From a virus, in IMG/VR virus record IMGVR_UViG_3300035703_000091, positions 1 to 63,441 of that record: a stretch of 63,441 nucleotides of DNA, one strand, 5' to 3'. The notes beneath the pieces were generated by a model. That model did not search any database. It saw only the letters and a list, made by a program, of their open reading frames with translations, and was not told where the DNA came from. Position 1 is the first letter of the stretch, and every line of letters starts with the position of its first letter. Positions 15,131-58,360 of this stretch are shown here, in pieces. Made by a program: the position numbers and the translations under genes.

Positions 15131-15177
15131 GTGCTGAAAAAGCACGATGACCATACACCGGATCATTCCAGTGTCAA
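15131..15177 (-). promoter_or_regulatory. Leftward promoter with operator core and leader hairpin
   Basis: On the minus strand TTGACA (15172-15177) and TATGGT (15150-15155) are separated by 16 bases, and the spacer contains GGAAT. The same arrangement drives the giant RNA and the cassette at 58.3 kb. A small hairpin, GTGCT with AGCAC at 15131-15145, lies at the expected start of the transcript. The ATG of the first gene is 33 bases past the -10. Confidence 0.7.
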
Positions 15178-15361: not shown

Positions 15362-16093
15362 CTAAGCCCTTGGAGACGCTAGGGTCGGCCGCGGCGCTGT
15401 AAAACTGTGCGGCCAGGCCGGGTAGGATATATCCGGCACAAATCGGTTGTTCTTCTTCCGGTTTTCGTCCGCCGTGATGATCCTCAGATTCCAAGGAACG
15501 TGAAGGCCGCAGACCTCTCGACCTAGTAGTGGGATCATGTGGTCGACGTGATGGCGCACGCCGGTTGCCTCGGTCAGGATGCGGGCCTCATCGTAGATCG
15601 CGATGATCTGAGCCCTTTGAATGTCGCTCAGAGGCAGCGTTTGGCGGATGATCGCTTGCTGAGATCGCTTTTTCATGCGGCGCCGAGCCAGTCGCACGGA
15701 GTCGGCGTTTTGGGCTGCATAGTTCCGCTGGTAGGCCCTAGCCTCCTCTCGAGTCCTTTCGCGGTGGTCCATCTTCACCCGCATCCAGGTCTCAGGATTT
15801 TCCGCTCGCCACTTGCGACACCGCGCTCGATCACATGAACGGCATAGCGTCGAGCGCCCGTCCTTCGCCTTGCGATTTACAGTGTAGGCGCTCAAAGGGT
15901 GCTCTGCACGGCACCTCGAGCACATCTTCGTCGGCTCCGGTGCCGGGGGCGGTGGCTGCGACCTTATTTTGGCCCGCCGCGCTCTTTGGTAGTCAGCAAA
16001 GCATCTCTTGCAATACGGCCCCGCCGCGCCGGCTCTGACCGTAAACGCCTCAACCGGCTTCTCTTCGCCGCATCTGCTGCACAGCTTCAGCAT
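15362..16093 (-). CDS. HNH homing-type endonuclease with N-terminal zinc ribbons
   Basis: A 243-aa protein. Two zinc-ribbon modules, each with two CxxC pairs (CSRCGEEKP...CKRC and CSRCRAEHP...CRSC), precede a basic helical linker and a C-terminal HNH nuclease core (VRHHVDHMIPLLG, then NLRIITADENRKKNN). This is the layout of free-standing phage HNH endonucleases that cut DNA and spread by homing. Its ATG is 8 bases after the intrinsic terminator of the giant RNA and has no ribosome site of its own, so it may depend on readthrough. The last codons overlap an attP arm-like repeat. Confidence 0.8.
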   Translation of the reverse strand: MLKLCSRCGEEKPVEAFTVRAGAAGPYCKRCFADYQRARRAKIRSQPPPPAPEPTKMCSRCRAEHPLSAYTVNRKAKDGRSTLCRSCDRARCRKWRAENPETWMRVKMDHRERTREEARAYQRNYAAQNADSVRLARRRMKKRSQQAIIRQTLPLSDIQRAQIIAIYDEARILTEATGVRHHVDHMIPLLGREVCGLHVPWNLRIITADENRKKNNRFVPDISYPAWPHSFTAPRPTLASPRA

Positions 16094-16097
16094 CCAT

Positions 16098-16905
16098 AAA
16101 TAGGAAACGCCCCCGATCCGAAGACCGAGGGCGTTGGGTCCGCGTGACCGATCGCGCTATCAGATCGGCTCGCCGCCGAAACGGCGGATTCCGGCCGACC
16201 ATCACTCCCATCCATTTCTACCCCGCCTCCGGGTGGCGGCCGCGCCCAAGGGGCAACCGCCGTCTTTCCGGCTGTCATCGGTTTGCCCTTTCGGGCCGTC
16301 GCCATCGGTCGCTACCCGGCTCTCGACCGGACGAGTCTAGGCTACATGGGGCACCCAACCGAAACCCGCGCCTGGCTCCCCGGCCCGGCTTGCACGGGCG
16401 GCCGGCGTCACCACCGGGCGGGGTTCTCGTGTGGCCCGAAGGCCGAAACTGGCCGGGATCACGCGGGTCCGTCTTCAACGGCCGCCACCCCGACTGCGCT
16501 TGGCCTTCGCGCAGCACCGTCTTTCCGGCTGTCCGCTTGGTGGCGGAATCGGTATCCGCCTTTCGCCGGGAGCCGGCGTCCCATTTTCCGCCCTGGGAAC
16601 GGGGTGGACCCTATAACGCTCGGCCCCTGCTTACGACCGCTGGCCCCCGGATTTTGTGATCTACCGGGCGGCGGTTGGTCGAAACTTACGGGGAGGAAAA
16701 GTCGGGCGTCCCTGACCACCTCCCCTGCGGGCCCTGTCACACCGGGCGTCCCGGCAGCGCAGCAGCCCGAATAGTCCGCAGACATCGCACTCTCCGGGGC
16801 CTGCGAGCCCGTCAATCAGGGCGGAGAAGCCCCGGTGCTTGCGCCGTTCTCTCTCGGCCGTCGACCCAACGACGCGGGGTCTGCGCTTACATTCGCCAGA
16901 ATGTG
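16098..16905 (-). ncRNA. Giant structured noncoding RNA candidate (about 800 nt)
   Basis: No reading frame here looks like a protein, yet the minus strand has a promoter (16912-16939), an intrinsic terminator (16106-16135) and many perfect stems. Examples, as plus coordinates: ACATTC/GAATGT 16889-16910; GACCC/GGGTC 16863-16881; CCGGGGC/GCCCCGG 16794-16835 enclosing GCCC/GGGC 16807-16822; CCGGG/CCCGG 16742-16754; GGGGAGG/CCTCCCC 16690-16725; GCCGG/CCGGC 16565-16577; CTGCGC/GCGCAG 16494-16514; GGCC-UUCG-GGCC 16433-16444; GCCC-GAAA-GGGC 16285-16296; CCGCCG/CGGCGG 16173-16187; CCGATC/GATCGG 16148-16168. A 9-base pairing joins 16863-16871 with 16132-16140, near the two ends. A 17-nt block repeats at 16260-16276 and 16517-16533. 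Size and phage context recall GOLLD and ROOL RNAs; homology to either is untested. Confidence 0.75.
16102..16135 (-). terminator. Intrinsic terminator of the giant RNA
   Basis: On the minus strand AACGCCC (16129-16135) and GGGCGTT (16106-16112) form a 7-bp stem with inner pairs, followed by TTTCCTATTT. The U-tract is imperfect, so some readthrough into the HNH gene is likely. Its 5' arm overlaps the sequence that can pair with the 5' end of the RNA. Confidence 0.75.
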
Positions 16906-16911
16906 AATGTG

Positions 16912-16939
16912 ACCATACAGGCGTTTATTCCTGCGTCAA
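16912..16939 (-). promoter_or_regulatory. Promoter and operator core of the giant RNA
   Basis: Minus-strand TTGACG (16934-16939), a 16-base spacer with AGGAATAAA, and TATGGT (16912-16917). The promoter at 58333-58360 has the same -35, -10, spacing and AGGAAT. CAGG/CCTG symmetry lies in the spacer. The inferred transcript start is about 16905. Confidence 0.75.
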
Positions 16940-17082: not shown

Positions 17083-17394
17083 CTACTCGACTTCGTGCTT
17101 CCAGCCGCGGGCGTGGGCGACTTCGTGGCAGGCGATTTGCGCGAAGACCTCGTCGCGGAAGACACACGGGTCGGGCAGGATCACGAAGCCGTCGACATAG
17201 CAGCCGACGATCATGTTGCTGGCCCGGCCGCCGATCTGTCGGCAGGCGGCGTCGATCAGATGGGCGGGGACCACGATCAGGCCCATGGCGATCGGCGGGC
17301 CGCCCACGAACTCGGCCGGCGGGCGCGTGACGAAGTCGGGCGCCGAGGCGGAGACGGTCATGGCCATCGCGGCCGAGAGAGCCAGCTTCATCAT
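17083..17394 (-). CDS. Secreted HExxH zinc metallopeptidase-like protein
   Basis: A 103-aa protein with a signal peptide (MKLALSAAMAMTVSASA, cleavage near residue 18) and a C-terminal ACHEVAHARGW motif, the HExxH zinc-binding signature; further cysteines (GCYV, DPCVF, IACHE, DAACR) could form disulfides in the periplasm. It is too short for a standard peptidase domain. It could be expressed from the lysogen to act on an envelope target, but that is inference. The leader of about 170 nt contains a 12-bp hairpin. Confidence 0.6.
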   Translation of the reverse strand: MMKLALSAAMAMTVSASAPDFVTRPPAEFVGGPPIAMGLIVVPAHLIDAACRQIGGRASNMIVGCYVDGFVILPDPCVFRDEVFAQIACHEVAHARGWKHEVE

Positions 17395-58313: not shown

Positions 58314-58360
58314 CCATACGCGATTTTATTCCTTGACGTAGGAATGAGGTCGCGTATGGT
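58314..58360 (+). promoter_or_regulatory. Palindromic promoter-operator
   Basis: A 10-bp perfect inverted repeat CCATACGCGA/TCGCGTATGG (58314-58323, 58350-58359) encloses a second one, ATTCCT/AGGAAT (58328-58345). Within it lie -35 TTGACG (58333-58338) and, 16 bases on, -10 TATGGT (58355-58360). It also contains TTTTATTCC (58324-58332). A repressor could cover the whole promoter. Confidence 0.75.

Follow-up and report, generated by a model that had tools for sequence, protein, structure and literature searches.

The 63,441-base viral record analysed here (the window) comes from a temperate tailed phage with an integrase, a gpA-type terminase, a lambda-family portal and capsid E, and it raises the question of what is specified at 16098–16939, a stretch with no plausible gene. 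The first-pass annotation had proposed an undescribed giant structured RNA of ~800 nt, transcribed from the minus strand between its own promoter and terminator. The stretch is flanked on one side by an HNH/endonuclease VII-like gene (15362–16093, minus strand; phrog_1035, E = 1.2e-28) and on the other by a small minus-strand ORF (17083–17394). A protein-family match was looked for in Pfam and PHROG and none was seen for the seven ORFs on the two strands of the stretch; GC content at the three codon positions of its longest ORF is flat (0.68/0.69/0.70, compared to 0.66/0.49/0.87 in the phage's long genes). These data agree with the claim that no protein is encoded here.

The proposed promoter, TTGACG-16-TATGGT, is present on the minus strand at 16912–16939. 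Related sites recur in the same phage at 15177–15150 (minus), 17598–17571 (minus), 50839–50812 (minus) and 58333–58360 (plus), forming a five-site family with the pattern CTTGACGnAGGAAT...TATGGT or CATGAT, and this recurrence strengthens the promoter call. The proposed intrinsic terminator is a 13-bp UUCG hairpin (16106–16135, minus strand) followed by a U-rich, imperfect tract, and the HNH gene lies directly behind it. Judged by sequence, both signals hold up and bound a presumed transcription unit of ~800 nt (16102–16905, minus strand) with a predicted start. We read the RNA as a putative accessory cassette that carries its own promoter and terminator and separates the late operon from the integrase; the HNH gene is possibly a read-through target or a hitch-hiking endonuclease.

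The giant size and the hairpin argument fared less well. We counted eight hairpins with perfect stems of 5 bp or more, rather than the ten or more cited as evidence, compared to 6.7 ± 2.3 in dinucleotide shuffles, and 76 of 200 shuffles had at least this number, placing it at chance level for this GC content. The folding z-score of the minus strand is −3.3. However, that of the opposite strand (16098–16915, plus) is lower still, at −5.6, so the low folding energy is no pointer to a minus-strand RNA, and the 149-nt core described below folds no better than shuffles on its own (z = −0.87). These results are what would be expected if the stretch were only GC-rich non-coding DNA with chance hairpins, a reading that conservation across phages and compensatory changes make very improbable and that is refuted for 16248–16396, although not for 16397–16905. 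Conservation in other phages is confined to 16248–16396 and a short repeat at 16517–16533. The ~500 nt on the 5′ side of the core showed no conserved structure, and the whole ~800-nt unit used as a DNA query against phages and plasmids gave no match. Only a domain of ~150 nt is thus kept in relatives. What stands of the original proposal is an undescribed structured RNA that is phage-associated, lies on the minus strand, is missing from Rfam and has promoter-like and terminator-like sites of its own. Two outcomes that would have counted against it, a protein-family match and a lack of covariation in homologues, did not occur.

The core was reached through a 17-mer, GACAGCCGGAAAGACGG, that occurs twice in the unit. 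Scanning IMG/VR with this 17-mer, where counts rest on the matches listed and are to be read as at least, led to a contig (L021) that carries two motifs at the same spacing as in the window. The two motifs are paired in many further contigs; with cmsearch, the number of other phage contigs that carry the full core rose to about 30, in addition to annotated phages. When the window and its two closest relatives were left out of training, a covariance model (R2) still recovered 16248–16396 on the minus strand with 63.2 bits and E = 1.2e-25, model E-values being rough. Comparison across these genomes shows that 16248–16396 belongs to an uncatalogued family of predicted phage RNAs found in many unrelated bacterial viruses. 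It is this comparative evidence that supports the core as a real RNA despite the failure of the hairpin argument. Nothing in Rfam 15, including GOLLD, ROOL, introns and ribozymes, matches the family, and no published description of it was found in the open-access literature.

Annotated carriers of the element include Klebsiella phage N1M2 and Serratia phage Sureiya, where it lies in tRNA clusters, Xanthomonas phage FoX2, where it adjoins a tRNA-Leu gene, Klebsiella phage P7641 and Myoviridae ct7L0027. The 3′ module of the core, element B, is absent as a pattern from lambda, phiKZ, Felix O1, phiCbK, PAK_P1, PB1, KVP40, P1 and ICP1. In bacterial genomes, the exact pattern of the 5′ motif, element A, was found in 12 stretches, none of which is followed by element B, and model searches, in which 7–10 candidates per genome were scored, gave one moderate match among 398 genomes from one order and no match among 296 from a second. 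These searches weakly support absence of the family from bacterial chromosomes. Other genes of the window phage did not lead to further members: the small protein at 17083–17394 found zero relatives as a query, relatives of the HNH gene have no adjoining RNA, and the RNA is absent from phage relatives found via the window phage's exonuclease. In the closest of these (L273), the exonuclease is followed by lysis-cassette-like genes and, farther on, an integrase-like stretch.

The core is composed of a 3-bp helix (P2), variable middle hairpins and, at its end, a hairpin whose GAAAGA loop is invariant, all on the minus strand. Element A, GGGUUUCGGUUGGGUGCCCC (16348–16367), forms the P2 hairpin by pairing 16365–16367 with 16349–16351, and its loop holds UCGGU (16358–16362). 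Helix c, GCCC-GAAA-GGGC (16285–16296), is the GNRA hairpin singled out in the first-pass annotation; it exists and matches a conserved helix of the family. It directly precedes ACCGA (16278–16282, within AAACCGAUGAC), which is nearly invariant in 27 sequences and would form the second strand of a pseudoknot with UCGGU. Element B (16259–16276) consists of GACA and the hairpin GCCG-GAAAGA-CGGC. The second copy of the 17-mer, at 16517–16533 (minus strand), is an element B without element A (R2 E = 0.0083).

Three of these helices, P2, helix c and the element B hairpin, covary among the homologues, as expected of a family of structured RNAs. In a set of 27 phages that was not selected for pairing, 81 of 81 outer pairs of the element B terminal hairpin are kept, compared to a permuted mean of 45.7; the larger 17-mer set, in which the stem pairs by construction, is evidence of distribution and not of covariation. 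Helix c scores 117 compared to 100 ± 3 in permutations. The P2 pairs vary as GGG/CCC, GCG/CGC and GGC/GCC, and because of the latter two variants the outer pairing is preferred over a nested alternative (inner GGG with CCC) that is energetically favoured in two members (L127 and L132). On alignment A3, 62 cells are doubly changed, compared to 22.7 after shuffling, and the signal collapses in slid controls, these statistics ignoring kinship. The proposed UCGGU/ACCGA pseudoknot, with strands ~75 nt apart, is plausible, its nearly invariant strands offering little variation to compare. Element B as a product of chance in GC-rich DNA is ruled out by the covariation in the unselected set together with the differently paired copies in one contig (L069). 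A non-coding stretch of that contig (L069:1-1140) contains five copies of element B, with stems that are all different, between long self-complementary, partly tRNA-like segments.

The layout had been likened to GOLLD and ROOL, with the caveat that nothing could be aligned to either, and the Rfam models agree with the caveat. In the window and 31 family loci, the GOLLD model gave nothing at the gathering score or at E up to 5, and the ROOL and group I and group II intron models gave zero matches; at lenient scores the scan returned chance-level matches. Membership in GOLLD, ROOL, introns or ribozymes was rejected, as Rfam scans yielded only tRNAs and chance matches. Like GOLLD and ROOL, the family consists of unexplained RNAs of phages or prophages near tRNA genes. 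However, the conserved core of those classes spans several hundred nucleotides, compared to ~150 nt here. GOLLD assembles into a 14-mer cage.

Other phage RNAs were also compared. The theta (HDV-like) ribozymes of gut phages are likewise small pseudoknotted RNAs adjoining tRNAs, but they sit 3′ of the tRNA and cleave at its end, whereas the RNA described here is mostly 5′ of the tRNA. With no Rfam hit, a helix order that is not HDV-like and most tRNAs downstream, a theta/HDV-like ribozyme was rejected by anatomy. HEARO/IscB-IsrB omega RNA was rejected because there is no Rfam hit and the neighbouring nuclease is endonuclease VII-like. The window contains an exact 19-nt match to the conserved twister-sister hairpin (16383–16401, minus strand); at 18.1 bits, compared to a gathering score of 34, and in a stretch not conserved in relatives, twister-sister was rejected as well. 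The T4 stable RNAs C and D resemble the family in being unexplained RNAs inside a phage tRNA cluster, but element B is absent from T4 and they were rejected as relatives. With its T arm and acceptor-like ends, T4 rnaC (L253:1909-2047) looks like a tRNA that contains a large insert.

Element B (UGAC-NGC-stem-GAAAGA-stem) is far commoner than the full core; its ACCGAUG form was found without element A in 45 further places. Of 76 canonical copies, 18 have an Aragorn tRNA no more than 150 nt away, compared to 3.2% at random, and T-arm motifs lie within 400 nt upstream in 17 of 76 and downstream in 19 of 76 (~3% each at random). Element B and its neighbouring tRNAs are on the same strand in all 35 of 35 cases. 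Where element B precedes a start codon, its 3′ edge mostly lies 16–40 nt away from it. Terminators occur just downstream in 3 of 64 cases, compared to 0.1–0.3 expected, and promoters upstream are weakly enriched (10 of 64, compared to 5–7 expected). Genes adjoining members have no family in common, which would suit a signal that serves transcription in general.

Two members place element B at an early promoter. In Aeromonas phage pAEv1818 (L289) and L007, element B ends a leader whose start closely follows a sigma-70-like promoter; the leader lies behind a repressor gene and ahead of early genes. A conserved leader of ~110 nt (GGCAGGACGCCCACGAAGUAGC...; L289:1185-1330, L290:1181-1330, L291:1180-1330 and L007:6270-6400) was observed just downstream of an early promoter in phages of Aeromonas, Salmonella and E. 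coli, and the element B end is found only in pAEv1818 and L007. This is the place occupied by the putL antiterminator RNA of HK022, which lies at an early promoter beside the repressor and forms two stem-loops; put RNA acts on the zinc-binding domain of the RNA polymerase β′ subunit (PMC9378689). The likeness extends to the order stem-loop I, short linker, stem-loop II in the leaders of pAEv1818 and L007, the members in which two stem-loops were seen directly behind an early promoter. By contrast, the GAAAGA loop of stem II, the pseudoknot and the tRNA-array neighbourhood set the family apart from put. Similarity to putL or putR was found neither by blastn nor by pattern in the HK022 immunity region, where the putL region was also read and folded, and homology to put was rejected for lack of sequence similarity.

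By analogy, we favour, with a probability of roughly 0.4, the reading that the family is a PUT-like cis-acting antiterminator, a leader or intercistronic element unrelated to PUT in sequence. The folded RNA leaving RNA polymerase would bind the elongation complex, as HK022 put RNA does, and make it less prone to pause or terminate, which would allow transcription of untranslated tRNA arrays and of genes that lie behind terminators. In the window, polymerase starting from the promoter at 16939 would pass the terminator at 16106–16135 into the HNH gene. This reading fits the placement of the element at operon starts, before tRNA arrays and before terminators, its constant strand and its varied genes; the missing similarity to put and the weak promoter enrichment keep it conditional. 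Against it, SPN3UB and mEp237 keep the leader and its position without canonical element B, and repeated copies within tRNA arrays (L069, FoX2 and L186) are unexplained by one antiterminator per operon.

Such repeated copies, of which L168 provides another example, are consistent with element B being intercistronic punctuation, that is, a nuclease signal or self-cleaving ribozyme that separates tRNAs and mRNAs in long phage transcripts. Its sharp 3′ edge, mostly 3–9 nt before the tRNA (4–6 nt in 6 of 9 cases), is consistent with this role, and theta ribozymes have a similar job at phage tRNA 3′ ends (PMC10879173). However, 100 of 184 copies have no adjoining tRNA or gene start, others lie in leaders at the start of a transcript, and no Rfam ribozyme family matches. 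We regard this as the least likely of the functional readings.

Several tRNA-rich loci show further features. In FoX2 (L250:3440-3900), element B flanks tRNA-Leu on both sides, and an element-A-like GGCUUUCGAUUGG...GCCC follows the first copy, as if permuted. Pseudomonas phage Itty13 (L292:890-1240) carries two GACAGCCGGAGAGACGG variants with the loop GAGAGA; they are separated by ~310 nt and lie close to the small terminase gene, where no genes are annotated. Phage tRNA genes of 110–129 nt, with inserts of ~40–50 nt, were observed at L186:3875-4487 (minus), L135:2200-2309, L229:2184-2312 (minus) and L183:4629-4743; the L186 inserts lie at different tRNA positions and share a common hairpin followed by NACAGCAA, like small introns.

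The tRNA neighbourhood on a constant strand could also reflect a stable trans-acting RNA like GOLLD, ROOL or T4 RNAs C and D. Transcribed from a promoter of its own or released from tRNA precursors by the enzymes that process tRNAs, it would affect translation or the host by binding a protein or the ribosome. The long invariant unpaired stretches, the promoter and terminator in the window and the position of some members just before terminators point in this direction. Yet an evident promoter is lacking in most members (5 of 29 have one, compared to 2.3 expected), and element B in gaps right before start codons is better suited to a cis element; we consider a trans-acting role unlikely, if somewhat less so than punctuation. 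A more probable proposition, which we advance tentatively, is that these pseudoknotted RNAs, which recur widely in phage tRNA arrays and operons, form a categorically new class and that their GAAAGA module may have an activity unlike those of described phage RNAs, for example as a ribozyme or directed at tRNA or the ribosome.

The family adds a short, easily searched RNA module, missing from Rfam, to many unrelated phages. If it is trans-acting, it would be a third tRNA-linked phage RNA class beside GOLLD and ROOL, and small enough for direct genetics in the growable phages pAEv1818, FoX2, N1M2 and Sureiya. If it is an antiterminator, the takeover of RNA polymerase by RNA alone, as in HK022, would have arisen more than once, and the module would account for the ability of phages to transcribe long tRNA arrays that are not translated.
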